From NCBI GenBank assembly GCA_937973635.1, contig CALJJZ010000041.1, positions 1 through 53,577 of the forward strand: a stretch of DNA of 53,577 nucleotides, written 5' to 3'. Positions 3,947 to 35,640 of the stretch are shown here, piece by piece (position 1 is the first letter of the stretch; the number at the start of each line of letters is the position of its first letter). This DNA is from an uncultured Bacillota bacterium. Its GTDB lineage: Bacteria; Bacillota; Dethiobacteria; DTU022; UBA8154. Made by a program: the position numbers and the translations under genes. The notes below the pieces were generated by a model that saw only the letters and a program-made list of their open reading frames with translations, ran no database searches and had not been told where the DNA came from.

Positions 3947-5305
3947 TTACCGAATCCGCATATTAGCGGCCAGTTTCTGTTTTTTCCATCTCCCGGAAGC
4001 ATAATAGGCAACACTTAACAGCATCCCCATAATGGCGCTAATCAATATAGCTAACCAGATGCCGTTTACACCTATTTGTGTGGCAAGAAGTTTCGCCAGA
4101 GGCACCCGTATTCCCCAAAGCGCTATTATCGTAAAAACCATGGCAGAGAAGGCGTCCCCCACACCCCTTAAAGCGCCGTTAGTAACATATCCGATGGCAA
4201 GGGGTGTGTAGGAGAAAGCTGCTATTCTAAAGTACGCTTTACCGCTGAGCAACACATTTTTATTATTTGTAAAAAGGCCGATAATCGCCTCGGGAGCCAG
4301 CAGGGCTAACAATGAAAAGACAGAGCTAAAGACACCGGCTAAAATCCAGGACCATTTTAACGTTTCTCTCATGTTTTTTTCGTTTCCCGCACCAAAATTT
4401 TGTGCCGCTATGGTAGTTGTGGCGGCAGCAATGGACATAGCAACCATGATGGCCAGCTTGTCAAGGTTCGTGGCTATGCCGTAAGCAGCAACGGTATATG
4501 TGCCAAAAGAATTAATGATGGAGGCTAAAACCATCCCTGACATAGATATTACAGTGGCCTGGACGCCGATAGGCACCCCGATTTTTAATATTTTTAATGT
4601 TATCTCGCGGGAGAATTTTATGTTTCTGGTTTTTAGTTGCATTAAGCTTGGCTTCTTTGCCATAAAGACAAAGGCTGTTAGGAAGGCAAAAAAATGAGAT
4701 AGAACGGTAGCCAGGGCTGCACCGTTAAGCCCCATTCTGGGGAAAAAACCCAGGCCAAGGATTAGAAACGGATCAAGGGCAATATTGAAGAAGACGGCAA
4801 CGAGCAAAAAAAGTAGCGGCGTTTTGGCGTCTCCCAAACCCCGCAGCACCGCGCTTACGCCATTGTAGCCAAACATAAAAACCAGGCCACAGAGTACAAT
4901 CACGAAGTATTCCGAGGCCGCCGGCAGTATCTCCGCGGGTGCGTTCATTAAAGCCAAAACTGTTCTATTAAATAGAATACCTGCGATGGCAACAAAAACA
5001 CCGGCAACAGTTAAAAGTAAAAGGGAATTATAAACCGTTTTTTCTATCTGCTCCACTTCTTTTGCCCCGGCGTACTGGGAAACCAGAATCGTGGTCGCCA
5101 TGGAAAAGCCCATAACCAGAGATACCAGCAAGAAAGTAAAGGGAAAACTCACAGCAATGGCTCCCAGCGCTGCGGGGCCGAGGAACCTTCCCACCCAGAT
5201 GCCGTCCATGACTGTGTTTAAAGTCTGTAGCAGGTTTCCCAGGAACATGGGGTAAGCAAAATTGACAATATGGGCAAGCATGCTTCCTTTCGTTAGGTCT
5301 CTCAC
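3947..5305 (-). CDS. MATE family efflux transporter
   Basis: A 452-residue protein with about twelve hydrophobic segments in two related halves. Its start, MRDLTKGSMLAHIVNFAYPMFLGNLLQ, is typical of the NorM/MepA/DinF-like MATE family, which exports cationic drugs or metabolites in exchange for Na+ or H+. Further family features are NTVMDGIWVGRFLGPAALGAIAVS and the repeated block near residue 245 (GVPIGVQATVISMSG). The gene starts 29 bases after the flavodoxin stop, at the end of the NEAT-sortase-flavodoxin run, so it may be co-transcribed and could export a product of that system. That role is inference; multidrug export is the default. Confidence 0.88.
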   Translation of the reverse strand: MRDLTKGSMLAHIVNFAYPMFLGNLLQTLNTVMDGIWVGRFLGPAALGAIAVSFPFTFLLVSLVMGFSMATTILVSQYAGAKEVEQIEKTVYNSLLLLTVAGVFVAIAGILFNRTVLALMNAPAEILPAASEYFVIVLCGLVFMFGYNGVSAVLRGLGDAKTPLLFLLVAVFFNIALDPFLILGLGFFPRMGLNGAALATVLSHFFAFLTAFVFMAKKPSLMQLKTRNIKFSREITLKILKIGVPIGVQATVISMSGMVLASIINSFGTYTVAAYGIATNLDKLAIMVAMSIAAATTTIAAQNFGAGNEKNMRETLKWSWILAGVFSSVFSLLALLAPEAIIGLFTNNKNVLLSGKAYFRIAAFSYTPLAIGYVTNGALRGVGDAFSAMVFTIIALWGIRVPLAKLLATQIGVNGIWLAILISAIMGMLLSVAYYASGRWKKQKLAANMRIR

Positions 5306-5334: not shown

Positions 5335-5847
5335 TTAAATACCAAGCCGGCGCAAAATTACTCGGTAAACCGTCCTGGCGTTTTGCAAGTCTTGCTCATT
5401 AGGATGTCCGGCAGCCTTTGCATGTCGTGCTTTCCGCTCCGGCGTCAGGGCATGGGGATGGTCCGGAGGTAATTTAGCCAACGCTTCTGTAATTTTAGGG
5501 TCTATCTTTCCCTGGCAGATAAACTCCCCCATAAGCTCATTGCCCGGGGCAAGCATGCTTATTACATTGTCCATGCTCCGGCGGGCATGCACCGAATCGG
5601 GCTCGGCCCCGAGGGTGGCAAATAATGCTACTTGCCGGTCCTTTATCTTTTTTACATATACCTGGGCTGTTTGGTCGGCGGTCTCCTTGTTTACCCAGAA
5701 CCCAAAGGCAATAAAAGCATACTCTTGCGGCGGCGGAGCTTCTTCCACCGGAAAGATATCTGTCCCCTCCGGCATCACAGAAAAAATTGCCTCTGCCACC
5801 CTTTTTGTGTTCCCTGTCCTGCTGGAGTATGTGACCAAAAGTTTCAT
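5335..5847 (-). CDS. flavodoxin-family protein
   Basis: This 170-residue protein begins MKLLVTYSSRTGNTKRVAEAI; the SSRTGNT loop is the FMN phosphate-binding loop of flavodoxins. A second conserved block (EYAFIAFGFWVNKETADQTAQ) corresponds to the flavin-contacting loop of the single-electron or hydride-shuttling flavodoxin domain. The C-terminal 40 residues are charged and rich in His and Lys, beyond a minimal flavodoxin. It lies 21 bases after the sortase stop and 29 bases before the MATE gene. In this operon it could deliver electrons to the imported tetrapyrrole or to the NifH-like protein, since flavodoxins are classic nitrogenase reductants; this is inference. Confidence 0.85.
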   Translation of the reverse strand: MKLLVTYSSRTGNTKRVAEAIFSVMPEGTDIFPVEEAPPPQEYAFIAFGFWVNKETADQTAQVYVKKIKDRQVALFATLGAEPDSVHARRSMDNVISMLAPGNELMGEFICQGKIDPKITEALAKLPPDHPHALTPERKARHAKAAGHPNEQDLQNARTVYRVILRRLGI

Positions 5848-5868
5848 TTTTATGGTAAGCCCCTTTCT

Positions 5869-6657
5869 TTATTCATCATAGCTTCTTTTAGCATGGACGA
5901 CAAACCTGGCATCGTCAGATTCGTAACTGCAAGTGGAAAGGGTAAGGATCCTGTCTTTAACTGTAACCTCCTGCTCTCTTTTAAAAAGTGACCTTTTCTG
6001 GATGCTTTCCAAGAAATAACCGTAATCATCCACAGTGGGGAAATATGTTTCCAGATAGTAAAAGTCGCCAGACGTAACATAGACAGAGAATATTTCCCAT
6101 TTCATTTCTGCGTAAAGGGTATTGAACTCCACCACAGGGTGCTTGTCAAAATAATCTTTCTTTTTGTAGCGCATAAGATCCCTAAACATGGACCCGTCTT
6201 TCATATTGTGGCCGTAGAGGATGGTATGCAGATCTTCAGCCGTACCCGTATTCCGGAAATCCATAAAGATTGACCCTCCCCTGGCAGGTTCTTTATGTAC
6301 ATTGTGAGCCAAGTAAAAATCATTATTATCTGTCTTCACCACCGGATAAGCGATGGCCGTGCCCGGTATGGTAATCCAGCCCACCAAATCCTCGTTTATT
6401 GGGAGAAGGCTCGCATACCTTCCCATGATGGGGGGCCTGGTTCCTTCACCGGTAAAGGCAGCTCCGTCTTCTGCAGAAAGATTTACAGCCCCTTGGTTTT
6501 CACCTTCGTACAAACATAGCGCCTCATAATTTGTTCTCCACGCTTCATAAACACTTTTGCTGTTAATAACCTCTGCGCAGTAAGTCCAAATAAAATACCC
6601 TGTATATAACAGCAAAAGAGCCCAGGCCATAAGCAATACTTTTTTAAAGATGTACAC
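5869..6657 (-). CDS. srtB: class B sortase
   Basis: This 262-residue transpeptidase anchors surface proteins to peptidoglycan. An N-terminal membrane segment covers roughly residues 5-26. The catalytic residues are visible: His150 in LYGHNMKDG, Cys243 in TLSTCSY, and Arg251 in DDARFVV. Class B features include VGWITIPGTAIAYPVVKTDNNDFYLAH and the helix-containing insertion between the catalytic His and Cys. Class B sortases typically serve iron-acquisition NEAT proteins; here the gene directly follows a NEAT protein with a SPKTAD sorting motif, its likely only substrate in this window. A strong hairpin lies between the two genes and may reduce sortase expression relative to its substrate. Confidence 0.93.
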   Translation of the reverse strand: MYIFKKVLLMAWALLLLYTGYFIWTYCAEVINSKSVYEAWRTNYEALCLYEGENQGAVNLSAEDGAAFTGEGTRPPIMGRYASLLPINEDLVGWITIPGTAIAYPVVKTDNNDFYLAHNVHKEPARGGSIFMDFRNTGTAEDLHTILYGHNMKDGSMFRDLMRYKKKDYFDKHPVVEFNTLYAEMKWEIFSVYVTSGDFYYLETYFPTVDDYGYFLESIQKRSLFKREQEVTVKDRILTLSTCSYESDDARFVVHAKRSYDE

Positions 6658-6692
6658 CGTTTACCCCTGTTTCCCCATCAGGTAAATAAATT

Positions 6693-6736
6693 GGCAAAAG
6701 AGGGGAAAAGGGATACTACCCCCTTCCCCTTTTGCC
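6693..6736 (-). terminator. long hairpin between the NEAT gene and the sortase gene
   Basis: An inverted repeat with arms GGCAAAAGAGGGGAA and TTCCCCTTTTGCC (one bulged base) encloses a short loop. On the transcript strand it is followed by only a weak U-rich tail (AATTTATTT). It is more likely an attenuator or processing site than a full terminator, because sortase, flavodoxin and MATE follow on the same strand with no clear promoter. Confidence 0.6.
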
Positions 6737-6747
6737 CAAAATAGTCC

Positions 6748-7398
6748 CTAATTGTTTTCAGCAGCTTTTTTCCTTTTGGCTGGGTGCATATAATACAGTG
6801 CTCCCGACAAGAGCAAAACCGCCAAAAGCAAAGTGACACTGGTGTAAAATGCCCTGTCTGCTGTTTTAGGTGAAGGAACAGAGAGGCTCCCTGCCGGTGT
6901 TTGTGTTGGTGAAGCATTTTGGCCTGCCCCAGTTGTTTTCCCTGTAAGATGCATTAGCGTTGTCGGATCAAAAGCCAACCTAAAGTTTACCGGCCTGCCC
7001 ATAGGGACTATATATGCTTGCACAGTTATGGGCTGCTCCAACTGCGCAATTGGGAGCTTGTATGTTGTCTCATTGACGGTTTTATCCTGCCCAATTACTG
7101 AAGCGGGCTCAAAGTGTCCCGCACTGTTTTTAAAACTCAAATCCTTTACCACTTCGCTGTCGGTCATGGTTATAGCAGCATAGATTTTACCACTAAGTAC
7201 TTCCAATTTGACCGGTTTTTTGATAGTTTTGTCCGCCATGGAGGGCGCATCGTTTGTCTCGTTAATAGCCACCACTTGAATGCTATACTCTCCTTCTTCA
7301 AGACCTGCGGCGGCGAATACCAATCCCGGCATCAGTGTAAAGAACAAAATTATCAACATTACAGCTAACATGTTTTTCCCTATTTTATTTGTGTTCAT
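6748..7398 (-). CDS. NEAT-domain surface protein with sortase B-type sorting signal
   Basis: This is a cell-wall tetrapyrrole-binding protein of about 216 residues. A signal peptide (NMLAVMLIILFFTLMPGLVFA) is followed by one NEAT domain of about 115 residues. Family features are EGEYSIQVVAINETNDAPSM, KLEVLSGKIYAAITMTDS and VKDLSFKN. The strand that usually carries the heme-ligating Y-x3-Y reads instead VPMGRPVNFRLAFD, so the canonical iron-ligating Tyr pair is missing. A linker rich in Thr, Pro and Ser leads to SPKTAD, a sortase B-like motif, then a hydrophobic helix and a KRKK tail. The next gene is a class B sortase. I chose the ATG at 7398 (AGGGGG eight bases upstream); a GTG at 7404 is possible. 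A Fur-like promoter lies upstream. Confidence 0.87.
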   Translation of the reverse strand: MNTNKIGKNMLAVMLIILFFTLMPGLVFAAAGLEEGEYSIQVVAINETNDAPSMADKTIKKPVKLEVLSGKIYAAITMTDSEVVKDLSFKNSAGHFEPASVIGQDKTVNETTYKLPIAQLEQPITVQAYIVPMGRPVNFRLAFDPTTLMHLTGKTTGAGQNASPTQTPAGSLSVPSPKTADRAFYTSVTLLLAVLLLSGALYYMHPAKRKKAAENN

Positions 7399-7525
7399 TT
7401 TCACATCCCCCTAGTTATCTTGCACTTTTGTTGACAACTACTGCTCAAGAATAGTGCTCTACGCAACAGCCCCTAGATTATGATCAGAACACCACCTCCT
7501 CTTTTGCCTTCCTGCTGTCTAAAGC

Positions 7526-7554
7526 TATATATTGTTAGGGAATTTCATTAACAA
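7526..7554 (-). promoter_or_regulatory. promoter with embedded Fur-like box upstream of the NEAT gene
   Basis: On the minus strand TTGTTA (7554-7549) and TATATA (7531-7526) are separated by exactly 17 bases. The spacer overlaps GTTAATGAAATTCCCTAAC (7534-7552), which matches the 19-base Fur consensus GATAATGATAATCATTATC at 13 of 19 positions. A repressor bound here would cover the spacer and the -35 element. It would give the NEAT-sortase-flavodoxin-MATE genes their own iron-responsive start. Confidence 0.55.
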
Positions 7555-7589
7555 CATTATTTAAAAATATGACCTGGCGCTTTTAAAAA

Positions 7590-8864
7590 CTAGAGCCTGG
7601 CCTGCAAGTTTTTGCGTTGGGCCTGGAGGTGGTTTAAAAGTACCTCCGTTAAATAGACCGCACCGTTAAAGCCCATAAAGGGGGTGTGTGCATAAAACTT
7701 AATCATGTGTGTCAGGTTAGGATTGGCCAGCTGGAGGCGCACAGGCACGTGCGCCCCCAGCTCTAGCAGCACGCCGTCGCCCAGCAGCAGGGAAGGATTA
7801 CTCTCTGCAATAAGCTGGGACATCTGCTGCTCATCGCTGTCAAAGAGGATAATTTCCCGAAGGGGCGCGGGCAGGGCAGCGGCGAAACCTTTTTCTTTAT
7901 GCCTGATCAGGATTTTTTTGATCTCCAGTTTCAGCTCATCCCTAAGAAACGGCAATATACCCAGGGCAAAATCATAGGCGCCGGAAAGTATGGCCGTCAT
8001 ATTCCCATACGTAAAGGCCGTATGGACAAACTTGTGCAGGTGCTTTTGCCCTTTACCTGCCTGATCTTTAAAGAAAAGCTCATTACCTTTGCTTGAACAG
8101 GCAGCTTCAATCTTTTTAACCCACTGGTATGTGCCTTTGATGCCGTAGGGGCTGCCGTAAACAAAGGGCATACCGTATTTTTCCTGCAAGATCTCGGCAC
8201 ATTGGAGGCCCTCGGAACGCAGCACGAGGTTAAATTCCGCCTGGGAGGCCTGCTCGATCTCTTTAATGGAGGTATTGGCTGTAAAAACAGTATGTGCCCT
8301 GTAGCCAAACCCCCCAGACATAATATTTTGGATCTCCTGGAGGTCAGCGGCAAAGTTATAGGCATCGATCGTGCCGCCGATGATGTTATATGTCCCCTTT
8401 AATTTCTCCCGCGGCCCCTGGACAATCTGCCCAGCTAAAACGGTCAGCACCTCTCGGAGGCCCTGAGTATAATCGCCCCGGAACCCGCCCCCTGTAAAGC
8501 AGATAAGCTTTGCCCTTACTTTATCCCGCAACTCCTGGCAAATGCTTTCAATATCGACTCCTACAATTGATGAGATGGAGGAGGCCAGCACAAAGATCAC
8601 CGGAGGGCTATAATGCTCGTCTACCTCCTTTATCGTCTCGGCCAGCCTGCCGCTGTCCCCCATGATGAGGTCTTCTTCTTCCAGGTGAGTAGTATAAAGC
8701 TTTGCCTGCAGTTCCCCGTTGTACTGCGTCAGCCCTTCCAAAGCATAGTGGGTTGTCCCCGCCGGGCCATACTCAATTATATAAGCGTCTTTTATGGTAG
8801 ACAGCGCCCAGATCACGCCCATCCTATCCGAGGGCAAAGGCAAATATTTATAGAGCTGCCGCAT
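7590..8864 (-). CDS. nitrogenase component 1-like subunit without cluster cysteines
   Basis: This is a 424-residue protein of the nitrogenase component 1 superfamily (NifD/NifK/BchN/BchB/CfbD). I chose the ATG at 8864 (AAGGG eight bases upstream), which overlaps the preceding subunit gene by 17 bases; the longer frame to 8984 adds 40 unrelated residues. Conserved structural blocks are IIEYGPAGTTHYALEGL, LASSISSIVGVDIESIC and NIIGGTIDAYNFAADLQEI. All three usual cluster cysteines are replaced: Ser/Ala in the first region, Thr37/Thr38 in GPAGTT where GPxGC is expected, and Ser near residue 96. The Asp that completes the BchNB cluster is also not at that place. It probably pairs with the upstream Cys-bearing subunit in a tetrapyrrole-reductase-like heterotetramer. 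Confidence 0.85.
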   Translation of the reverse strand: MRQLYKYLPLPSDRMGVIWALSTIKDAYIIEYGPAGTTHYALEGLTQYNGELQAKLYTTHLEEEDLIMGDSGRLAETIKEVDEHYSPPVIFVLASSISSIVGVDIESICQELRDKVRAKLICFTGGGFRGDYTQGLREVLTVLAGQIVQGPREKLKGTYNIIGGTIDAYNFAADLQEIQNIMSGGFGYRAHTVFTANTSIKEIEQASQAEFNLVLRSEGLQCAEILQEKYGMPFVYGSPYGIKGTYQWVKKIEAACSSKGNELFFKDQAGKGQKHLHKFVHTAFTYGNMTAILSGAYDFALGILPFLRDELKLEIKKILIRHKEKGFAAALPAPLREIILFDSDEQQMSQLIAESNPSLLLGDGVLLELGAHVPVRLQLANPNLTHMIKFYAHTPFMGFNGAVYLTEVLLNHLQAQRKNLQARL

Positions 8865-10164
8865 GGTGTTCACCCTTTCGCCTGTATTTAAAAACACTGA
8901 TAGCATCAGCCAGCGCCTGCATGACCAGGAGAGGCACTTCAAACCCCAGTTTTTTGGCCACGCCATCCAGGACCACCTGGACAATACCTTTCTCCATTAA
9001 AAGCATGGGGTTTTCGTGTCCGATATAGATATCCAGGGACAGGTGGTCATACAGCTGCCGTAACAGGGCGATATTGGCAACGCGGGAAACGTAGGGGTCA
9101 TGGCCCGTAGCAAGAATTTCCTTTAGGTACTGCTCATCGTCCGCATAGAGGTCCCTTGCCTGGATCAGTACCGGTTCCATCCCCAGAGCAGCCAAAAAGC
9201 CGCTTAACTCAAAGGCTAAAAGGGGCGTATTGGCATAAAGAAACCGCTTGCCCCGCAGCATCCCTTGATACTGCTGCTGTGCTTTTAATACCTGTCCTTT
9301 CATCTCTTTCACTTCCTGCTCCAGGCTCAGCCCCAGCTTTGCCCCAATTTCCCGGTAGCCTCTCTCAATCCGCTCCAAATTCAGGTATTTCTCAAAATAA
9401 ACATAGGGAACCTTGAATTTTTCCTTCATTTTCTGCGCCAGCTTCAAGGACGTAAAATCCGTTACAATATTCAGTGCCGCCGCCGGAGCCGTTTTGAGTA
9501 AATCAATACTGCTGCTGGCAGGAAGGACCATATGGACCTGCACCTCCCGGGTCCGCAGCACCTTTAACAATTCAGTATCTTCCACGCCGCTATAGCGGTG
9601 GCCGAGGAGATTAACCGTCTTTTCTTGGCGCGGCTGTTCCTCCATAAGTTTAAGCATTACCTCCAGCGACCGCTCGATCCCTGGAATGTGGTTGTCGCAC
9701 TTAAAATGCTCTGTTTTAACCAGCAGCAGCTTGGCCTGCACCTGTTCCTGCACTTCACAAATAAGCGCTGCCAGATCCTCGCCAATTACTTCCAGGATAC
9801 AAGTTGTTACCAGCAGAATGGCTTGGGGCCGGTAGCGGCGATCGATTTCCATAACTGCTTCCCTTACTTTTCCCTGGCAACTAAAGACTACGTCGTCCTT
9901 GGTCAAAGCAAAGCTGAGGAAATTATCCTCCAGGCCGGCAAGACTATTTGCTCTGTCAATGCTGAACGATTTTGTGTAGTAGGTGCATTCATCGCTGCCC
10001 ACCACCAGGACAAAGAGGCCCTTGATATAGCCCGCCGTCAGGGCTACGCCGAACAAGGGGCAGTGGGTTCCGGGGAACTGGGCCAAGGAGAGCTGTTTGA
10101 TATCCTTGGCCGTGCTGATTTGTGAGACACGCTTTAATTTTTCAAGCTCTTTAAGTCTAGACAA
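8848..10164 (-). CDS. nitrogenase component 1-like subunit with three cluster cysteines
   Basis: The second component-1-like subunit has 438 residues if the TTG at 10164 is used (GGAGGAG upstream; overlap of eight bases with the ATPase stop). The cysteines sit at about 35 (GTHCPLFG), 60 (GSDECTYY) and 122 (TTCILEVIGED). The spacing of 25 and 62 residues is very close to that of BchN of dark-operative protochlorophyllide reductase (26, 51, 112). The protein is shorter than NifD and I see no equivalent of the NifD FeMo-cofactor ligands. It is therefore expected to hold an Fe-S cluster that passes electrons to a substrate other than dinitrogen. Genomic context (importer, NEAT protein, Fur-like boxes) points to a tetrapyrrole. 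Confidence 0.88.
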   Translation of the reverse strand: MSRLKELEKLKRVSQISTAKDIKQLSLAQFPGTHCPLFGVALTAGYIKGLFVLVVGSDECTYYTKSFSIDRANSLAGLEDNFLSFALTKDDVVFSCQGKVREAVMEIDRRYRPQAILLVTTCILEVIGEDLAALICEVQEQVQAKLLLVKTEHFKCDNHIPGIERSLEVMLKLMEEQPRQEKTVNLLGHRYSGVEDTELLKVLRTREVQVHMVLPASSSIDLLKTAPAAALNIVTDFTSLKLAQKMKEKFKVPYVYFEKYLNLERIERGYREIGAKLGLSLEQEVKEMKGQVLKAQQQYQGMLRGKRFLYANTPLLAFELSGFLAALGMEPVLIQARDLYADDEQYLKEILATGHDPYVSRVANIALLRQLYDHLSLDIYIGHENPMLLMEKGIVQVVLDGVAKKLGFEVPLLVMQALADAISVFKYRRKGEHHAAAL

Positions 10165-10972
10165 AGGTTCCTCTCCTCCTCGCTTCAGTCTGGGCGCAGG
10201 AAATACCAAGGGGATAAAACACGGGCTTGCCTATGCGCCTGTCTAGGGCAACTTCTGCTTCCACATGGTACACATGCCTGAGCATCTCTTTAGTAAGGAC
10301 TTTTTCCGGGGCGCCCTCCGCAAAAATTCGACCCTCTTTAATTACCAGGAGCCTGTGGCTATAACGTGCCGCCTGGTTGAGGTCGTGCAGCACCATAATA
10401 ATGGTAATGCCAAACTCTTTATTTAAACCGCTAATCAACTCCATAACTTCAAGCTGATGGCTTATATCCAGGTAAGTAGTCGGTTCATCCAGTAGCAAAA
10501 CTTCAGTTTTTTGGGCAAGGGCCATGGCAATCCAGGCCCGCTGCCGTTCCCCACCTGATAAACTGTTTACCGTCCTGTGAGAAAGTTTTTCTAAACGGGT
10601 CTGTTTAATCGCCCACCATACTATTTCTTCATCTGCGCTGCTCTGGCACGCATACCACTTACGGTGAGGCAGCCGACCGTACCACACCAGCTCCTCCACG
10701 GTAAAATCGGGTGGGCTGACATTATACTGGGAAAGGGCAGAAAGCTTTTTCGCCACCTCTTTGGTGGGCAATTTATGGATATCATACCCATCCAGGTACA
10801 CCGCCCCACCCTGCTTAGCCATCAACCTAGATAAAACTTTTAATATAGTGGACTTCCCTGAGCCGTTGGGCCCAATTAAAGAGACTATTTCGCCTTTCTC
10901 AAGGGTAAACCCGAAGCCGTCCACCACAATGTTGTTGTCATAGCCAACCTTTAAGTTAGCGGCTTTTATCAT
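10157..10972 (-). CDS. FecE/BtuD/HmuV-type ABC importer ATPase
   Basis: This 271-residue ATPase energises uptake of iron-siderophore, heme or cobalamin. Walker A is GPNGSGKST, the Q-loop follows LSALSQYN, the signature is LSGGERQR, Walker B is VLLLDEPTTYLD, and the switch His is in MVLHDLNQAARYS. These are the features of the FecCD-associated ATPase group. The start overlaps the permease stop by four bases (ATGA), and the stop overlaps the nitrogenase-like gene by eight bases. Importer and reductase genes are therefore translationally interlocked, which argues that they share one substrate. Confidence 0.95.
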   Translation of the reverse strand: MIKAANLKVGYDNNIVVDGFGFTLEKGEIVSLIGPNGSGKSTILKVLSRLMAKQGGAVYLDGYDIHKLPTKEVAKKLSALSQYNVSPPDFTVEELVWYGRLPHRKWYACQSSADEEIVWWAIKQTRLEKLSHRTVNSLSGGERQRAWIAMALAQKTEVLLLDEPTTYLDISHQLEVMELISGLNKEFGITIIMVLHDLNQAARYSHRLLVIKEGRIFAEGAPEKVLTKEMLRHVYHVEAEVALDRRIGKPVFYPLGISCAQTEARRRGTFV

Positions 10973-12003
10973 ACTCTGTATGTCCCTCTCCTTCTTAGCA
11001 AATAAAGAAAAAACGGCCCGCCGATAATCGCCATCAATATTCCCACCGGCAGCTCCACCGGGCTAAAAGCAGCCCGGGCTCCCGTATCGGCCATAACCAG
11101 CAATGCTGCCCCCAGCACGGCGCTGAGCGGCAGCAAAAAGCGGTAATCTGTGCCGACGAGAAGCCTGCTAATATGCGGCACAACCAGTCCCACAAAACCA
11201 ATCAAACCCACCATAGCCACGGAAATGCCCGCCAAAAAAGCTGCAACCAAGGACAATATGACCCTCGCAGCGTTGACGCGTATGCCGAGATTTTTGGCCA
11301 CGTCGTCACCCAATAGCAACACATTAGCCGTGTTGACACAAAGCATGGCAGCGATAAGGCCAATAAGGCTGTATGGCAGCAAGGTCCCTGCCTGGTACCA
11401 GCTCCTGCCAGCTACGGTGCCATTCAGCCACATAATCACATTTTGGATGCGGTCGCTGTACAAAACAGACAACAAGGCCAAGCCCCCCCCCAGAATGGCA
11501 TTTACGGCCACACCGGCCAGGATGATCCTGATCGGGTCAATGCCCCTTTTCCAGGCCAAAACATAAACCATAAATGCGGCCATAATGCCGCCCAAAAACG
11601 CAGCTATGGGAACAAACCTGGTCAGTTGGGGCAGAGTTAACATAATTGTCACTGCGGCCAGACCCGCCCCTGCCGATACGCCGGTAAGGCCGGGATCGGC
11701 CAGGGGGTTGCGCATTACTGCTTGCAGCAGGGCACCGGACATGGCCAGGTTAGCCCCTACCATAATGGCAATCAACGTCCTCGGCAGGCGTATATGCATA
11801 ATTACCGTCCTGGCCGCCGTTGTTTCCGCCGCGGAAACAGCGCCTATTATCTCCGAAACAGCATAGTTAACGCTGCCATAGCGTATGGACAGCAGGCTGA
11901 CTGAAAATAAAAGGCAAAGGCTGCAAAGAAAGATAAAGACGCGTTTGGCTAACCGGGGACCCAATTTTCCTTTGGCTGCTTCTAATTTAGGCATTGCTTT
12001 CAT
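10969..12003 (-). CDS. FecCD/BtuC-type ABC importer permease
   Basis: This 344-residue permease has about ten membrane helices and the FecCD/BtuC hallmarks: RLPRTLIAIMVGANLAMSGALLQAVMRNPLADPGLTGVSAGA near the N-terminus, and LAGISVAMVGLIGFVGLVVPHISRLLVGTDYR in the ATPase-contact region. The family imports iron-siderophores, heme and cobalamin. Its start overlaps the end of the binding-protein gene by 17 bases; an alternative ATG nine bases downstream is possible. The substrate is not readable from the permease itself and is inferred from the adjoining nitrogenase-like and NEAT genes. Confidence 0.95.
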   Translation of the reverse strand: MKAMPKLEAAKGKLGPRLAKRVFIFLCSLCLLFSVSLLSIRYGSVNYAVSEIIGAVSAAETTAARTVIMHIRLPRTLIAIMVGANLAMSGALLQAVMRNPLADPGLTGVSAGAGLAAVTIMLTLPQLTRFVPIAAFLGGIMAAFMVYVLAWKRGIDPIRIILAGVAVNAILGGGLALLSVLYSDRIQNVIMWLNGTVAGRSWYQAGTLLPYSLIGLIAAMLCVNTANVLLLGDDVAKNLGIRVNAARVILSLVAAFLAGISVAMVGLIGFVGLVVPHISRLLVGTDYRFLLPLSAVLGAALLVMADTGARAAFSPVELPVGILMAIIGGPFFLYLLRRRGTYRV

Positions 12004-12997
12004 CCTGTTTGTACATTATTTCTGCCAAGAACATCAAGGCCTCCACCACCTCCGGGCCGGGGTTGGAAAAAAACAGAGCTGAAGGCAGGTCGTACACCCG
12101 GTTGTTTTGCCAGGCAGAAAATGTCTGCCAAAGGGGGTTTTTGAGAAACTCCTCCTCAAAGAGCTTTTGTGTTTCTTCTGGGGTACCATGGGAAATACGC
12201 AGAATGATCTCTGGGTTAAACTCCGCAACCTGCTCCATGCTTATGGGGAGATAAGCAGAGGCACCCTCGGCTAGTCTGATTCCCTCCGTAATGTTTTCCC
12301 CACCCAGCATTTTTACCATACTACCTGCATAAGAAGTCTCCCTGGCCATGAGAAAAGAGCCTCCGGCACCGAAAAGTATGAGTACCCGGGGCGATGGTTT
12401 GCCTTCAGCCAGGCTTAAAGCCGCTTTTTCCTTTGCCTTCATTTCTTTTAGCAATTGAGAAGCCTCCTCTTCTTTGCCAAAAGCCCGGCCAAGCATTTCA
12501 ACGCTGTTGATTGTCCCGGCATAAGACTGATTATCCAGAAAGAAAACGGGGAGCTTATGCTGGGCCATTTTTTCTCCAAGATTGGGCTTAAAGTTTGAAG
12601 AAACAATCACCAAATCCGGATTTAAAGCCGTAATCGCCTCCAGGTCAGGCTCCATGGGAAAGCCTACCGTCGGCAATTCTGCCAGCTTGCCCGGCAGTGG
12701 TTGCATCGTGCGGGTTATACCTACCATTTCAATCCCCAGTCTGTCCATAAGCTTGGCCGTAGCCACGGAGAGAACGATGATACGCTCGGGCATGCTCTCA
12801 CTGACAAAGACGGTACCGTCAGGCTCCACCAGCCTGAATTTCCCCGTCTCCGCCATTACATCCTTATCGCTGCTTTCAAGGTTATAATTCACATCTGGAG
12901 CAGCGTGGGGAGAAACTCCGCAGCCGCCCAGTAATAACGCGGAAAATATAATGATACAAGCAGCAAGCAGATACTTCTTGCTTAACATTTTTAACAT
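11987..12997 (-). CDS. periplasmic-binding lipoprotein of the FecB/BtuF type
   Basis: This substrate-binding lipoprotein has about 336 residues. The start at ATG 12997 has GGGGG upstream and gives the lipoprotein signal MLKMLSKKYLLAACIIIFSA with lipobox LLGGC (Cys26). The mature part is the two-lobe helical-linker fold: MPERIIVLSVATAKLMDRLGIEMVGI, DLEAITALNPDLVIVSSN, and ILFGAGGSFLMARETSYAGSMVKMLGGENI. It delivers a metal chelate to the permease encoded immediately downstream. Heme, a corrinoid or a siderophore all fit the fold; the NEAT/sortase B neighbours favour heme. Confidence 0.9.
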   Translation of the reverse strand: MLKMLSKKYLLAACIIIFSALLLGGCGVSPHAAPDVNYNLESSDKDVMAETGKFRLVEPDGTVFVSESMPERIIVLSVATAKLMDRLGIEMVGITRTMQPLPGKLAELPTVGFPMEPDLEAITALNPDLVIVSSNFKPNLGEKMAQHKLPVFFLDNQSYAGTINSVEMLGRAFGKEEEASQLLKEMKAKEKAALSLAEGKPSPRVLILFGAGGSFLMARETSYAGSMVKMLGGENITEGIRLAEGASAYLPISMEQVAEFNPEIILRISHGTPEETQKLFEEEFLKNPLWQTFSAWQNNRVYDLPSALFFSNPGPEVVEALMFLAEIMYKQDESNA

Positions 12998-13025
12998 TGT
13001 TCCAACCCCCACCAGCTGAGATGAA

Positions 13026-13793
13026 TTAAGGTGCACTGCTTATTCGCTCTTGTTTAATTACTGTTTTTGCCAACTCCATATATATGGCCGTAAGATCGGC
13101 TGCTGGAAAGGCTTCTACTACAGTTTTCCCCTTTTGCTCCGCTTTCTGCACGTAGCTGTCCCGGGGAATGTACTGCACCACAGCTGTATTTATCTCCTCT
13201 GCCACCTTTGCTACTAGCTCCCGCTCACCGTCAACCCCCTTCGCGTTTAAAATTAGCCCCTTTAAAGTTGCATAACCTTTACTTTTGAACTGCTCTAGTG
13301 CTGTAGAAATATTTGTGGCAGCATAAAGGGACATCATCTCTCCTGAAGTTACAACGAAAACATCCTCCGCATACCCTCCCCGCAGCGGCATGGCAAAACC
13401 TCCGCACACTACGTCCCCCAGCACGTCATAAATAACCACATCGGGACGGTATACGGCAAAGGCATTTAATTCCTCCAGCTTTTCAAAGGCGGTGATTATT
13501 CCTCTGCCAGCACAGCCTATGCCTGGTGTGGGGCCTCCCGTTTCCACACAAAGGACATTCTTGTACCCCTGAAAAACGATGTCTTCCAGGGAGAGGGCAT
13601 CCTTCTTGTTTTTGATACTCTCCAGTACAGTGGGCACCTTTTCCCCGTCCCTCAGATTCTTGGTAGAATCAGCTTTGGGGTCACAGCCGATCTGCATAAC
13701 TTTTAGCCCCATGACAGACAAAGCAGCAGAGAGGTTAGCCGCTGTTGTTGACTTGCCGATACCACCTTTGCCATAAATTGCTATTTTGTGCAT
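13026..13793 (-). CDS. NifH/BchL-like iron protein
   Basis: This 255-residue ATP-dependent reductase is the electron donor expected for the two component-1-like subunits. The P-loop [19 protein letters not shown] is at residues 7-25. The two Cys that bridge a [4Fe-4S] cluster between monomers are present: Cys94 in GIGCAGRG and Cys130 in [14 protein letters not shown]. These blocks are essentially the NifH switch regions, including the Arg that is ADP-ribosylated in some NifH proteins. It is shorter than NifH (about 290) because the C-terminal extension is missing. The gene sits between the DUF2325 gene and the importer genes. No nifD, nifK, nifE, nifN or nifB is visible. Confidence 0.92.
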
Positions 13794-13849
13794 CTACCTT
13801 CCCTCCTGAAAAACGACCTTTTCTGGCTATAAAAATATGAGCTTAAGCT

Positions 13850-14140
13850 CTAACAGAGCTGCGGCCCCTGCAACGTTAACGCCCTGTAAATATGGGACCA
13901 GGCCCGGCGTGCAAAAACGGTTCTAATGCCTTTTCCCCGGGCTTCTACTTTAATTTTTTCTGCAAGGCGGTGGTTAACATAATCGATGAGCACCAGGATC
14001 ATATCCACCTGCTGGGGCAGGGCAACGTTAAAATGCCCTTTCTTGCGGCCGCTGAGATGCTTGACCTCGGTAAAACCAAAAAGTTTCAACTTTGACGGTA
14101 TCTCTCCTAACCTGTCTCCTCCCACAACTAATACAGACAT
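13850..14140 (-). CDS. DUF2325 family protein
   Basis: This 96-residue protein matches the DUF2325 family: SVLVVGGDRLGEIPSKLKLFGF, then HLSGRKKGHFNVALPQQVDMILVLIDYVNH, and FARRAWSHIYRAL. The fold looks like a small Rossmann-type domain. No biochemical function is known to me. I chose the ATG at 14140 (GGAGG six bases upstream) over a start at 14158. It is the first gene behind the Fur-like box at 14178-14196 and is followed after 57 bases by the NifH-like gene, so it is probably the leader gene of the tetrapyrrole import/reduction operon and may be a regulator or assembly factor for it. Confidence 0.8.
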   Translation of the reverse strand: MSVLVVGGDRLGEIPSKLKLFGFTEVKHLSGRKKGHFNVALPQQVDMILVLIDYVNHRLAEKIKVEARGKGIRTVFARRAWSHIYRALTLQGPQLC

Positions 14141-14177
14141 GCTCCACCTCCAGCGCATATTTGCCCTGCGGGCTTTT

Positions 14178-14196
14178 GTTAATGAGATTCATTATC
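14178..14196 (-). promoter_or_regulatory. Fur-like box upstream of the nitrogenase-like operon
   Basis: The minus strand reads GATAATGAATCTCATTAAC, 15 of 19 positions matching the Fur consensus GATAATGATAATCATTATC; the left half TGATAAT is perfect. The GATAAT itself could serve as a -10 element, but no good -35 was seen. The box lies 38 bases before the DUF2325 start codon. Confidence 0.6.
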
Positions 14197-14559: not shown

Positions 14560-16617
14560 CTAGCCGAGTCCCAAAAGGGTCCCCACCTGGTAGACCAGGA
14601 CGGCCATCAGCCAGCCCAGGACCAGGCTGTAGCCCACGGCAAAAGACATCCAGCCCCAGGAGTTTGTCTCCCGTTTAATGGCAGCAATAGAGGCGATGCA
14701 GGGGATATAGATCAGCGTCATGACCATAAAAGCGTAGGCAGACAGAGGTGTCCAGTGCTGGGCGATTGCGCTGCTCAGACCCGCTTCTCCCATACCGTAA
14801 ACTACACCCAGCGTGCCCACCACAACCTCCTTAGCCAGGATACCGAAGATTAAAGCAGCTGCTGCTTCCCAGGTGCCAAAGCCGGCAGGTTTAAAAACGG
14901 GGGCCACAAAACTTCCGATTCTTCCCAGGATGCTCTCCTGGCTGGCGTACTCCACCCCGGCAGGCAGGCTGGAAAGGACCCAGACCAGGATTACCACGGC
15001 AACGATAATGGTGCCGGCTTTACGCACAAAAGCGCTGCCCCGCTCCCACATGTGGAGCAAAGTGCTTTTAAGGGTGGGCATCCTGTAAGGGGGCAGTTCC
15101 AGCACAAAATGGGAGCTTTCGCCTTTAAACAAGAAGCGTTTGAAGAGGACCCCCATGAGGATGGCCAGGACGATGCCTAAAAGATAAAGGGAAAAGATAA
15201 CCATACCCTGCCTTGCACCGAAAAAGGCCCCGGCAAACAGGACGTATACGGGCAGGCGGGCAGCGCAGGACATGAGGGGGTTAATTAAAATGGTAATTAT
15301 GCGGTCGTTTTTATTTTCCAGCGTGCGCGTGGCCATAATGGCGGGGGTGTTGCAGCCAAAGCCAATCAAAAGGGGGATGAAAGATTTGCCGTGCAGGCCC
15401 AGGGCGTGCATAAAACGGTCCACGATATACGCTGCGCGGGCCATGTAGCCGCTGTCTTCCAGGAGGGAGATGGCAAAGAACAGCAGGAAGATGGGAGGGA
15501 TAAAGACCAGGACCGCACCAACTCCAGCAATGATACCGTCTCCCACCAGGGAAGAGATTAGTTCCCCCGCACCGAGGGCTGCCAATAATGAGCCTAGAAC
15601 CTCGCCGAGCCACTCAAAGAGCTCCTCTGTCCAGCCAATAAGGGGATCACCAAGTTTGAAAGTAAATTGAAACATGGCCCACATGGCTAAAAGGAAGATG
15701 GGGATCCCCAGGTAGCGGTTGGTAACGACGCGGTCGATCTTATCCGAGATGGAGAGCCGTTCTTCAGCGCTCCTGCGGCGGATAACCACTTCCCTGGCAA
15801 GGCCACCAATAAAGCCGTAGCGGCGGTCTGCGAGCAGCGATTCCATATCCTCCCCCCACACTGCCTCCAGCTTTTTTACAGCCTCGTGGCGGCGGTTTAA
15901 AAGGGGGGCCAGCCTTTGGTGCCTCTGCAGCTCTTTTAGGATAAACTCGTCACCCTCTAGTACCTTGACTGCCAGCCAGCGGGGGGCATATTTTTCTGCC
16001 AGATCAGGGGAGGCAAGGATCTCTTTTTCCAGCACAGCCAGCTCCTTTTCCATCTCCTCGCCGTAGTTGAGACGTAAGGGCAGGATCTCTTTTTCCCCGG
16101 CTGCCTTAAGCGCCATTGCCACCAGCTCTTTCATTCCCTGGTTGCGTGTAGCCACCGTCGGCACCACCGGCACAGCCAACAGTCTCGACAGCTCGCCCAC
16201 GTTAATTTCCATCTGCCTGGCACCCAGTTCGTCGGACATGTTCAGGGCAACCACCACGTTGGCCCCCAGCTCCAGAAGCTGGACAGTAAGGTAAAGGTTG
16301 CGCTCCAGGTTGGTGGCGTCAACAATATTGACTACCACGTCGGGTTTTTGGAAGAGGAGATAATTGCGGGCTACCGCTTCATCTTCCGCATAAGCGCTGA
16401 GGCTATAGGTGCCAGGCAGGTCCACCACCTGCACTGTGTACTCTCCGGATTGGAATTGTCCTTCCTTTTTTTCTACCGTGACACCGGGCCAGTTCCCTAC
16501 GTGCTGCCTCGCCCCTGTTAAAGCATTAAAAACAGTGGTTTTACCTGAATTTGGGTTTCCGGCCAAAGCCAGCACAATTTTTTTGCTTTCCTTTCTTGCC
16601 TTTTGGAGCACTTCCAT
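14560..16617 (-). CDS. feoB: ferrous iron transporter FeoB
   Basis: A 685-residue GTPase-permease for Fe2+ uptake. The N-terminal G domain carries [36 protein letters not shown] (G1 and switch), [11 protein letters not shown] (G3) and ALNMSDE (NxxD, G4). A helical segment follows, then the membrane part from about residue 300 with two Gate-like blocks ([42 protein letters not shown] and the C-terminal half). Length and order fit the family. It follows two feoA genes, with a Fur-like box in front of the first. Confidence 0.97.
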
Positions 16618-16668
16618 ACTGGTTTTCGCCTCCTCTACTTAAGCAAGTCTTGACACCATTGGGAAAAG

Positions 16669-16908
16669 TCAGCTTCCTTCCTCCACCATAATCTTCAGGG
16701 CCATTGCGCGGGCGATAGCCAGGCGCCCCTCGCCGATGGAGATAATCAGCGGGCTGCCCGCATCGTTTTTAACAACATCTATTTTTGTTCCGTGAAGCAG
16801 GCCCAAATTATTTAACCGCTGGCGCAAGTCCTTTGTCCCGTGAAGATCTCTGACCACGGCGCTACAGCCAGCCCGTAGGAAACCCAGGGGTAAAATATGG
16901 CCCCTCAT
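16669..16908 (-). CDS. feoA: FeoA family protein (second copy)
   Basis: This 79-residue SH3-like small protein belongs to the FeoA family, which assists FeoB. The core LGFLRAGCSAVVRDLHGTKDLRQRLNNLGLLHGTKIDVVKNDAGSPLIISIGEGRLAIARAMA follows the family pattern of a turn with LxxLGLxxGT. It overlaps the first feoA by four bases (ATGA) and precedes feoB by about 50 bases. The N-terminus is unusually short and hydrophobic, and its Cys15 is not a typical family feature. Confidence 0.9.
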   Translation of the reverse strand: MRGHILPLGFLRAGCSAVVRDLHGTKDLRQRLNNLGLLHGTKIDVVKNDAGSPLIISIGEGRLAIARAMALKIMVEEGS

Positions 16909-17156
16909 AGCGGCTGCACCTCCACCAAAATACAGGCTGCTTCTCCTTTCCTGAGGCTGAGATGGTAACCTTTCACCAGTATCTCCATGGGATCACCAAG
17001 GGGGGCTATCCCCTGCACGCAGATATCTGTCCCGGGGGTAACCCCCATTTCCAGGATACGGCGGCGGACCGGGTTTTTGGCTGTTATACGCATGACCCGG
17101 CCCCCTTCTCCTTTTTTTAGCTCGCTCAGGGTTTTAGTGATTAACAGCCTTTCCAT
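16905..17156 (-). CDS. feoA: FeoA family protein (first copy)
   Basis: This is an 83-residue FeoA with LSELKKGEGGRVMRITAKNPVRRRILEMGVTPGTDICVQGIAPLGDPMEILVKGYHLSLRKGEA. I place the start at the ATG at 17156. GGAGG lies about 14 bases upstream, rather far, so the exact start is uncertain. An upstream in-frame ATG at 17273 would add 39 residues, run through the Fur-like box and give a FeoA much longer than the family norm; I reject it. The 3' end overlaps the second feoA. Confidence 0.9.
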   Translation of the reverse strand: MERLLITKTLSELKKGEGGRVMRITAKNPVRRRILEMGVTPGTDICVQGIAPLGDPMEILVKGYHLSLRKGEAACILVEVQPL

Positions 17157-17216: not shown

Positions 17217-17235
17217 AATAATGAATTTCATTTTC
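17217..17235 (-). promoter_or_regulatory. Fur-like box upstream of feoAAB
   Basis: The stretch AATAATGAATTTCATTTTC matches the Fur consensus at 14 of 19 positions and contains a perfect AATGAA-T-TTCATT inverted repeat. It lies about 60 bases before the feoA start codon, in the gap between feoA and the divergent cobalamin riboswitch. AATGAAATTC is shared with the box before the NEAT gene. Confidence 0.65.
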
Positions 17236-30091: not shown

Positions 30092-30251
30092 ATAGATCAC
30101 CCTTTTGTATTTTAAAGAATAACAGTTAATCCTTTATTAAAAATCCTTAATGGTTGAGTTAAATTTAAGTTAAACTTTCGTAATATTGTTTAACAACGGT
30201 ATAATAGTCATGGTTTTTAGTCCTATCAAACTTAAGAAAGGAAAGGCAAAA

Positions 30252-31013
30252 ATGGGAAAACAATTAAAGGTAAAATGGGAAAAAGAGGGAAACATTGCTG
30301 TAATTATCATCGATAACCCTCCTGCCAATACCTTGAGCCACGCCGTAACAGTCCAGCTACTTAGCTCCCTCAAAGAAATTGAAAGCGTGGAAGAAATCAG
30401 GTGCGTGGTATTGACTTCGGCCGGGGAAAAATTCTTCATGGCGGGGGCGGACCTGCGCGAGTATACCGGCAGGGACTATTTTACGCCGGGCTTTGCTTTG
30501 GATTACCTTGACGCTTTTAAACAGCCGGTAATCGCAGCGGTACAAGGGCTGGCCCTGGGGGGGGGATGCGAATTGACGCTCTGCTGTGACCTCTGTATCG
30601 CCGCAGAAAACGCCTGCTTCGGCCTGCCCGAAGTTAAGCTGGGCATGATCCCCGGCGGCGGCGGCACACAGCGCCTACCCCGGCGCGTAGGAGAGGCTAG
30701 GGCCAAGGAGTTAATGTTCCTCGGCGAACAGATATCCGCCCAGGAAGCCCTGAAAATCGGCCTCGTTAACCGGGTCGTGGCAGAAGGGACAGCCTTGGCA
30801 GAAGCAAAAAAAATGGCGCAGCGTATCGCCGCCCAACCCGCCGTTTCCATCAGGATGATTAAACAGTGCGTGGAGAGGGGCTTGGAAGTCCCCCTGGCAG
30901 AGGGTTTAAAAATCGAGGCGGACCTGTTTGAGCTTGCTTACCGCACCGCAGATGCCCGGGAAGGGGTAGCCGCTTTTCTGGAGAAACGCCGGCCCAATTT
31001 CAAACATAAATAG
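30252..31013 (+). CDS. enoyl-CoA hydratase/isomerase (crotonase) family protein
   Basis: A 253-residue crotonase-fold protein that probably hydrates enoyl-CoA. Family motifs are AGEKFFMAGADLREY (oxyanion loop), GLALGGGCELTLCCDLCIAAENACFGLPEVKLGMIPGGGGTQRLPRRVG with both catalytic Glu residues (GGGCEL and LPEVKLG), and the C-terminal VAAFLEKRRPNFKHK. I chose ATG 30252 (GGAAAGG nine bases upstream) over an ATG at 30186 in the promoter region. It stands alone between divergent and convergent genes, without beta-oxidation partners in the window. Confidence 0.94.
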   Translation: MGKQLKVKWEKEGNIAVIIIDNPPANTLSHAVTVQLLSSLKEIESVEEIRCVVLTSAGEKFFMAGADLREYTGRDYFTPGFALDYLDAFKQPVIAAVQGLALGGGCELTLCCDLCIAAENACFGLPEVKLGMIPGGGGTQRLPRRVGEARAKELMFLGEQISAQEALKIGLVNRVVAEGTALAEAKKMAQRIAAQPAVSIRMIKQCVERGLEVPLAEGLKIEADLFELAYRTADAREGVAAFLEKRRPNFKHK

Positions 31014-31034
31014 GGGTCTGACCCCCAGGAAAAA

Positions 31035-32561: not shown

Positions 32562-32567
32562 AGATAA

Positions 32568-35617: not shown

Positions 35618-35640
35618 GACAAAACGCCTCCTTCTGCAGC

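Follow-up and report, generated by a model that had tools for sequence, protein, structure and literature searches.

For many Bacillota it is an open question how strict anaerobes that lack heme oxygenase release iron from heme. In passages of a 2025 review of anaerobic heme degraders, the routes given are radical SAM enzymes, and HmuS has been reported as a dechelatase of gut bacteria (PMC12670364, PMC12583661); the word "nitrogenase" does not occur in the text of that review (PMC12670364). Here we describe a gene cluster in a 53,577-nucleotide stretch of DNA from an uncultured Bacillota bacterium (the window, meaning the whole stretch analysed) that joins an Isd-like uptake system to a three-part nitrogenase-like enzyme, made of a NifH-like protein and two component-1 subunits, A and B. 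On balance we favor the reading that it is a Fur-controlled, strictly anaerobic system for acquiring heme iron, built around a nitrogenase-like heme reductase. The genome that holds the window (G000) is a 2.56 Mb draft, 96% complete.

The uptake genes recall the Isd system of Staphylococcus aureus and the Cht system of Clostridium perfringens, with which they share a NEAT protein, a sortase, an IsdE-type lipoprotein, a FecCD permease and Fur-type control. Unlike those systems, the three-part nitrogenase-like enzyme here lies inside the importer operon, and a PF01126 heme oxygenase was not found (0/10 genomes carrying close relatives of the cluster, group 1 below). The systems ChuW/HutW and HmuS recover heme iron independently of oxygen, as is proposed here, but they are radical SAM or CobN-type enzymes.

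To our knowledge, the nitrogenase-like reductases that do without a nifB-type cofactor (DPOR, COR, CfbCD) are biosynthetic. Like DPOR (BchL-BchN-BchB), the enzyme described here has a NifH-like donor and two homologous subunits, with three cysteines in the subunit of N/A type and none serving as a ligand in B, and it has no nifB-type cofactor; DPOR also provides the closest predicted fold for B. It differs from DPOR in having Thr-Thr-His in place of Asp at the fourth-ligand site, Asp being a ligand of the DPOR cluster (PMC3464626, PMC11423573), and in forming a separate clade (relative to one BchN and one BchB reference row). It resembles CfbCD, of coenzyme F430 synthesis, in that its NifH-like protein scores best against CfbC, and differs from it in having two distinct catalytic subunits instead of one and in scoring below the cut-offs. 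Group IV nitrogenase-like enzymes and isethionate reductase have also been described (PMC11423573). Dos Santos et al. (2012) described a similar "light-blue" clade in which NifH and ABC ATPase genes are linked, with, as in A and B, three P-cluster cysteines in the NifE-like subunit and none in the NifN-like one; its genes were reported from Clostridium botulinum and Alkaliphilus oremlandii, with a suggested role in metal supply for cofactor assembly (PMC3464626). The word "heme" does not occur in the text of that paper, and its likeness to our loci rests on these described features. The sequence-only reading had held that no pathway of this kind is established, and we found no nitrogenase-like heme, NEAT, sortase or siderophore system among the matches listed, for some searches only the best-ranked ones, from the open-licence PMC literature, a scope that excludes preprints and most subscription papers; a passage search of PMC9147875 and PMC9431491 brought up nothing about heme uptake. 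The cluster consists of parts of known kinds, and no earlier case of their combination in a single operon was met in the literature searched.

The importer and reductase genes form one operon

From 14158 to 5335 on the minus strand, genes for a DUF2325 protein, the NifH-like protein, a lipoprotein, a FecCD permease, an ATPase, A, B, a NEAT protein, a class B sortase and a flavodoxin follow one another, and every product matches Pfam above the curated cut-off in a profile scan of the window proteins (Table 1). All genes named in the sequence-only reading are thereby present, in the order and on the strand it gave, and so are the overlaps of 4 to 17 bases that it reported (permease/lipoprotein 17, ATPase/permease 4, A/ATPase 8, B/A 17). 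A starts at a TTG (10164) preceded by a Shine-Dalgarno-like stretch and B at an ATG (8864); for the lipoprotein the ATG at 12997 is a more likely start than 13036, and a short gap then separates the gene from nifH. No PF00148 matches other than A and B occur in the draft genome.

When B was used as a protein query, 7 of the 97 genomes of the class gave a match at an E-value of 0.001; in the phylum, 45 of 398 sampled Bacillota genomes did so at 1e-20, with scores forming a graded series. A pattern scan for A, based on an eight-row alignment and covering one genome for each of 84,980 species, gave 60 loci. Loci that repeat genomes already counted (L068, L070, L071, L098, L121) were excluded. Group 1 comprises 15 close loci including the window, in which A is 47-70% and B 40-66% identical to the window proteins, and group 2 comprises 50 other loci (within L074-L125), in which A is about 34-43% identical to that of the window where well covered. 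Group 2, which includes Phascolarctobacterium, Catenibacillus, Neobittarella, Epulopiscium and a Spirochaetaceae MAG, comes mostly from metagenome-assembled genomes (MAGs) of gut or rumen, to judge by their titles. Several group-1 carriers (L067, L068, L070, L071, L121) have names (Alkaliphilus, CROMO, BS524, GPS119) that suggest an origin from iron-poor sites, alkaline or serpentinising.

Linkage was counted by tblastn with queries drawn partly from the same loci; the counts include genes missed or cut by the open reading frame (ORF) caller, which were excluded from alignments. Within group 1 the lipoprotein, permease and ATPase are linked in 14/15 loci and NifH in 13/15, and the loci without importer or NifH (L052, L058) sit on contigs that end there. 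The corresponding figures for group 2 are 46/50 (lipoprotein), 45/50 (ATPase), 44/50 (permease), 43/50 (NifH) and 48/50 (B), with many of the misses on short contigs. Because the linkage of importer, NifH and A/B is kept across both groups, the importer and reductase operon is one unit. The linkage in related genomes on which the sequence-only reading depended therefore holds, for the importer in 14 and for NEAT in 6 of the 15 group-1 loci. DUF2325 is linked in 4/15. An in-frame TAG was noted in the B genes of two genomes, G265 and G309; that of G265 is a stop near the C-terminal end.

Heme capture, import and iron control

Among Protein Data Bank (PDB) sequences, the lipoprotein is nearest to 5joq (Lmo2184, which we take to be a heme binder; E 5.5e-46) and to IsdE (2q8p; E 2.7e-44). 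An ABC transporter protein (1.6e-20) and siderophore binders (from 6.5e-16) come next, so that over 20 orders of magnitude in E-value separate IsdE and Lmo2184 from the following PDB entry. The best NCBIfam match is also IsdE (TIGR03659), at 245.5 bits, below the cut-off of 298.65. The predicted axial ligands are Met128 (codon 12653-12655) and His283 (codon 12188-12190), numbered from 13036, and both align at one constant offset with the IsdE ligand positions, which we take to be Met78 and His229. Met and His are the heme ligands of IsdE (PMC7815599). His283 is kept in all 14 group-1 lipoproteins and Met128 in 9 of the 13 scored.

Genes for surface capture point the same way. NEAT genes lie beside the reductase in 6/15 group-1 loci and sortases in 5/15. 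Above-cut-off NEAT matches occur in only 9 of the 398 sampled Bacillota genomes, 2/9 in group 1 versus 7/389 among the others, and all NEAT matches of G000 and G092 fall inside the reductase locus. Three of the seven other NEAT genomes (G280, G335, G418) also have more distant component-1 relatives, in G280 on a different contig from NEAT. The sorting signal of the window NEAT protein, SPKTAD, is NPxT-like without being exact; its relatives have NPKTGD, SPQTSD or IPKTGD. In Hathewaya massiliensis, a neighboring gene encodes a 1352-residue, hemoglobin-receptor-like protein with two NEAT domains, three Shr-like hemoglobin-interacting domains (HID) and several LRR stretches, and is followed by a gene for an LPXTG-type NEAT protein. 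Downstream of the group-2 locus of Epulopiscium are encoded a 1560-residue SLH protein with 60 bits of NEAT summed, no single stretch passing, and a 324-residue protein with a NEAT score of 32.6 bits (cut-off 32.8). The diderm Phascolarctobacterium faecium has, after B, genes for a ChaN protein of the heme-binding kind (4.4e-54) and for a TonB receptor; across group 2, ChaN is found in 2/50 loci and TonB in 5/50, those five all from Phascolarctobacterium or Acidaminococcaceae.

The 19-mer at 14178-14196, about 20 bases upstream of DUF2325, is the single best Fur-box match in the 53.6 kb (3 mismatches), and the sole 4-mismatch site of the window (17217-17235) sits some 60 bases ahead of where feoA probably starts. 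A 15-mer Fur word finds 4 window matches at up to 3 mismatches (1.63 expected); since 7 of 100 shuffles reach 4, that word alone is not significant in the window. Fur-like boxes had been proposed before both gene blocks. The first stands as the window's best match, while the second, before NEAT, is weak: the site there, at 7534, has 6 mismatches, a level reached by 17 window sites, and we rejected a strong box at that place. Among relatives, sites were sought only upstream of NifH, DUF2325, substrate-binding protein (SBP) or NEAT genes found by a simple ORF caller. An upstream 19-mer with at most 4 mismatches is present in 8/13 group-1 loci (window, L022, L023, L054, L056, L067, L072, L073), with a single mismatch in L072, and a Fur-like site is the unique best of its locus in 7/13 (window, L022, L023, L053 with 5 mismatches, L054, L056, L072). 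This upstream scan gave no site or only weak ones in L057, L066 and L069. Fur-family genes are present in 4/4 genomes tested.

Heme capture and import are thus well supported by NEAT, SrtB and HID in monoderms, by ChaN and TonB in diderms, by the IsdE-type lipoprotein and by the Fur boxes. Judged from these genes, the system very likely takes up heme, and the identification of heme as the imported ligand has good support.

Active site and relationships of the reductase

Three candidate cluster cysteines of A, C26, C51 and C113 (numbered from 10137; codons 10060-10062, 9985-9987 and 9799-9801), are invariant in 45/45 aligned relatives, likewise H25, E50 and H150. In B the cluster positions are not occupied by cysteine; its S12, D13, T37, T38 and H39 are invariant in 52/52 aligned proteins, and Thr37-Thr38-His39 (Thr37 codon 8754-8756) occupies the fourth-ligand site. 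The residue at this site is Cys in nitrogenase, Asp in DPOR, where it comes from BchB, His in a siderophore-linked sister clade, and Thr in the heme-type clade, group 2 included; the divergent relative L059 also has Thr. Groups 1 and 2 therefore have a common active-site signature despite their differing lipoproteins, and the sister clade is without D13 and H39. From this shared signature we read the same reductase chemistry for both groups, with a putative site-differentiated [4Fe-4S] cluster.

AlphaFold2 models of A and B have a mean predicted local distance difference test score (pLDDT) of 89.6 and 89.0. The predicted B is nearest to BchB (Z 40.5, 2.6 Å over 408 residues, about 15% identity in the structural alignment), ahead of nitrogenase, Mar and NifN chains (Z at most 36.1; Mar chains 35.6), and the predicted A is nearest to BchB too (Z 32.0, 3.5 Å over 389). 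In a joint A/B tree, groups 1 to 3 and L059 form their own clades, with support of 96/88 for A and 100/94 for B, and the Nif, Vnf and Bch rows included fall outside them. Groups 2 and 3 each form a clade; group 1 does not lie on one side of a branch in either the A/B or the NifH tree. As references served a single plasmid-borne set for each of Bch, Nif and Vnf, together with rows from two of the genomes found in this work, with BchN and BchB (one row each) and L064 on long branches; the tree holds no CfbD, BchYZ, Mar or Isr rows, and the NifH tree, built without CfbC, is poorly resolved. The expectation that the subunits would stand apart from clades with known non-tetrapyrrole substrates is accordingly borne out for Nif and Vnf, the two such clades that the tree covers.

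Three known memberships were rejected. Nitrogen fixation is contradicted by the lack of nifB, which was not found in G000 and makes a NifB-made cofactor unlikely, of a second component-1 pair and of cluster cysteines in B. CfbCD is rejected on NCBIfam scores: the NifH-like protein matches CfbC best at 348.1 (cut-off 402; nifH 335.3, BchL 202.3), and A and B reach 31.4 and 37.2 of 268.4. DPOR is rejected on Thr (52/52) where DPOR has Asp; the tree itself leaves DPOR membership open.

Two relatives diverge further. L064:6803-14416 (G144) is a more distant nitrogenase-like set linked to an importer of FecBCD type and to a radical SAM protein resembling biotin synthase, as named by eye, and L059:1364-11425 (G294) has the gene order ATPase, permease, lipoprotein, others including a methyltransferase-like one (by eye), A, B and NifH.

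The mechanism that we propose would run as follows. The NEAT protein anchored by sortase B would take heme at the wall, and the IsdE-like lipoprotein with the FecCD/ATPase importer would carry it inside. The NifH-like protein, supplied by reduced ferredoxin or by the linked flavodoxin, would push low-potential electrons into A-B through ATP hydrolysis, and the A-B complex, with a [4Fe-4S] cluster held by the three cysteines, would reduce heme to, for example, a chlorin-, phlorin- or porphyrinogen-level product whose ring loosens its iron. The freed iron would join the Fur-regulated pool, and the spent tetrapyrrole would be exported by linked MATE or ABC exporters. Only the uptake half of the anaerobic tetrapyrrole route first suggested for this locus is well supported, by independent lines; its reductase step, like the [4Fe-4S] cluster, the product and the export step, we infer from sequence. 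That the reductase acts on imported heme is probable. Whether ring reduction then leads to iron release is, on the same kind of evidence, an evenly balanced question. Much the same chance attaches to the fuller proposal of an ATP-driven ring reductase, with a three-cysteine cluster and an open or Thr/His-bound fourth site, that would free heme iron without oxygen, radical SAM chemistry or a dechelatase and would found a wider family. As part of that same even bet, the family would consist of reductases built into FecBCD importers, with a heme branch in environmental and gut anaerobes and a siderophore branch.

The flavodoxin adjoins the reductase genes, before or after, in 5/15 group-1 and 19/50 group-2 loci, and it may be the electron donor or a partner in handling the product or another tetrapyrrole. 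A Fusobacterium flavodoxin-family protein is linked to heme trafficking and anaerobilin reduction by a title in the reference list of PMC12583661. The MATE-like exporter, found in 5/15 group-1 loci and directly after the flavodoxin in G222 (L052; 65% identical), possibly exports the reductase product. ABC exporter pairs lie in or beside the cluster at L066 and L067, and can be likened to the two permease/ATPase fusions of the cht locus (PMC5026354). The same two loci have a YgbA_NO protein in or beside the cluster (L066:3482-7228, PF11756 by scan; L067:15812-19681, by eye).

Alternative explanations and implications

Several observations weigh against the reading of the cluster as a heme-reducing iron acquisition system. 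NEAT was not seen in 9/15 group-1 loci, at least three of which (L052, L058, L073) are on contigs that end close by, and the window NEAT protein is without the usual YXXXY pair. The TonB receptors of Phascolarctobacterium are not cleanly typed as hemin receptors, all scores being below cut-off: that of L084 scores best for hemin (235, cut-off 317), and of the two at L089 one scores best for B12 (203, hemin 166), the other 202 for a ligand-gated channel and 197 for hemin. The structural preference of A for BchB is small (32.0 vs 30.6). Other heme enzymes are not wholly absent from the ten group-1 genomes. HutW (TIGR04107, cut-off 400) is above cut-off in none of them (best in G000, 31.2), and sub-cut-off matches of 31 to 199 bits occur in all ten, as they do in all 14 controls; an ABM (IsdG-type, PF03992) protein occurs in one (G085) and none in G000; and CobN-type chelatases, able in principle to remove iron, occur in G000 (two) and G092 (two). 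Group 2 departs further, with the IsdE-type His in 0/43 lipoprotein rows, an upstream Fur-like site (at most 4 mismatches) in 0/33 loci examined, and an AraC-like regulator near 26/50 loci; for these reasons its substrate may differ from heme. Finally, the sister clade (L126, L060, L062) goes with siderophores on the Sporomusa termitida plasmid pSPTER.

As to the missing tyrosines, the NEAT protein has a Met-containing PSM...PMGR in their place, which recalls the Met66/Met153 site described for Shp. Met in place of the Tyr pair departs from Isd and has also been described for C. perfringens ChtD/E and for Shp, and ChtD/E bind heme nonetheless (PMC5026354). Such Met ligands would suit ferrous heme and a reducing habitat. 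The lipoprotein ligand test, for its part, fails as proof for all relatives, as the His count in group 2 shows; the six lipoprotein rows from the sister clade and L059 likewise have no IsdE-type His. Group-2 lipoproteins have a motif like NxNFDIE.

The sister clade gives the main alternative its force. On pSPTER (L126:4852-17301), genes for a lipoprotein nearest to FepB, two FecCD permeases and an ATPase are followed by the same enzyme type; an AraC regulator, a PF00756 esterase and a TonB receptor for siderophores (340 bits against a cut-off of 223.5) are encoded close by. This setting makes it probable that importer-linked nitrogenase-like reductases serve more than one ferric chelate, and the sister-clade enzyme may be one that reduces ferric siderophores with ATP. 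That an imported ferric chelate is what the enzyme reduces is therefore a variant to be taken seriously. The enzyme would then be a general ATP-driven ferric-chelate reductase, with electrons passing to the bound metal and iron set free from a porphyrin that stays intact (protoporphyrin IX) or, for the sister clade, from a siderophore. The siderophore-type gene set on the plasmid, the same three cysteines in the sister-clade A and the joining of the groups in the A/B tree speak for it, but the difference at the fourth-ligand site, His versus Thr-Thr-His, indicates different chemistry. In addition, free heme iron is easily reduced without ATP, which makes an ATP-driven enzyme excessive for the mere step from Fe(III) to Fe(II). 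We consider this general form unlikely.

Conversion of imported heme into a modified tetrapyrrole cofactor for the cell, with iron release not the aim, would fit the biosynthetic roles of DPOR, COR and CfbCD (PMC11423573). Ferrochelatase was found in 0/10 group-1 genomes, so that heme may be needed as such. The Fur-like sites directly upstream and the exporters nearby argue against this explanation, as does the lack of any further tetrapyrrole-modifying gene among the Pfam and NCBIfam matches of the window proteins, and we regard it as improbable. The ligand could instead be another tetrapyrrole (a corrinoid, a chlorophyll breakdown product or a linear bilin) or another chelate. FecBCD-type importers carry corrinoids too, group-2 lipoproteins are without the IsdE-type His and the flavodoxin is BilS-like; the group-1 IsdE-type ligand positions, the hemoglobin-interacting domains of Hathewaya and the ChaN protein of P. 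faecium make such a ligand very improbable. It is just as improbable that a CobN/HmuS-like chelatase elsewhere removes the iron while the nitrogenase-like enzyme serves, for example, metallocluster assembly (PMC3464626), since CobN was not found in 8/10 group-1 genomes and the reductase genes remain in the importer operon in nearly all long-enough loci, against the precedent of HmuS (PMC12583661) and the CobN-type proteins of G000 and of G092, in the latter about 13 kb from the cluster.

CobN was accordingly rejected as a conserved partner (2/10 genomes). By eye, the G092 region L133:3102-17621 holds the tandem CobN pair, ChlI/D-like AAA proteins, a CbiZ-like protein and another FecBCD importer, while the G000 CobN loci (L134, L135) lie elsewhere in the genome with ChlI/D-like AAA proteins, one of them beside an oligopeptide/nickel-type importer. 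Two distant genomes have proteins that look alike by eye close to their FecBCD or TonB loci (L089:4284-5246, L133:18294-19292); a profile scan types the former as an AP_endonuc_2-like TIM barrel, below cut-off. Elsewhere in the window we noted by eye a run of large signaling proteins (27731-38979; GGDEF/EAL-like, PAS, PP2C-type phosphatases, CheB/CheR-like) and a protein of 2082 residues that looks secreted and has stretches resembling von Willebrand A (45580-51828).

Table 1. Positions in the window of the cluster genes, adjoining genes and short sites
Feature	Position	Strand	Evidence
DUF2325 protein, first gene	13850..14158, start 14158 or 14140	-	PF10087 50.3 bits
NifH-like ATP-dependent Fe-protein (putative electron donor)	13026..13793	-	PF00142 Fer4_NifH 312 bits
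IsdE-like lipoprotein	11987..13036, likely start 12997	-	Peripla_BP_2 125.5 bits; nearest solved 5joq, IsdE 2q8p
FecCD-type permease	10969..12003	-	PF01032 315.6 bits
ABC ATPase of importer	10157..10972	-	PF00005 114 bits; nearest NCBIfam FecE 288.7, cut-off 375
Component-1 subunit A	8848..10164	-	PF00148 Oxidored_nitro 212.3 bits
Component-1 subunit B	7590..8864	-	PF00148 Oxidored_nitro 245.2 bits
Secreted NEAT protein, IsdC/Shp-like	6748..7404	-	PF05031 83.8 bits (cut-off 32.8); PF11545 Shp 33.7 bits
SPKTAD sorting signal, then hydrophobic stretch and basic tail	6856..6873	-	Sequence, by eye
Class B sortase	5869..6657	-	Sortase 60.1 bits; TIGR03064 228.1, cut-off 153.75
Flavodoxin, BilS-like	5335..5847	-	PF12641 Flavodoxin_3 172.8 bits; BilS 101.3, below cut-off 155
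MATE-family exporter	3947..5305	-	Named by eye
feoB and feoA, adjoining ferrous iron uptake operon, separate unit	14560..17156	-	ORFs named by eye
Fur-box-like operator	14178..14196	.	19-mer, 3 mismatches

If heme reduction by this enzyme is true, it would be a new reaction for the nitrogenase superfamily and one tied to iron acquisition. It would account for a large uncharacterised group, mostly from gut and rumen genomes with some environmental anaerobes, and what was an orphan clade would become an enzyme that can be tested on a named substrate. The residue at the fourth-ligand site (Cys, Asp, His or Thr) would then serve as a simple sequence marker of the branches.

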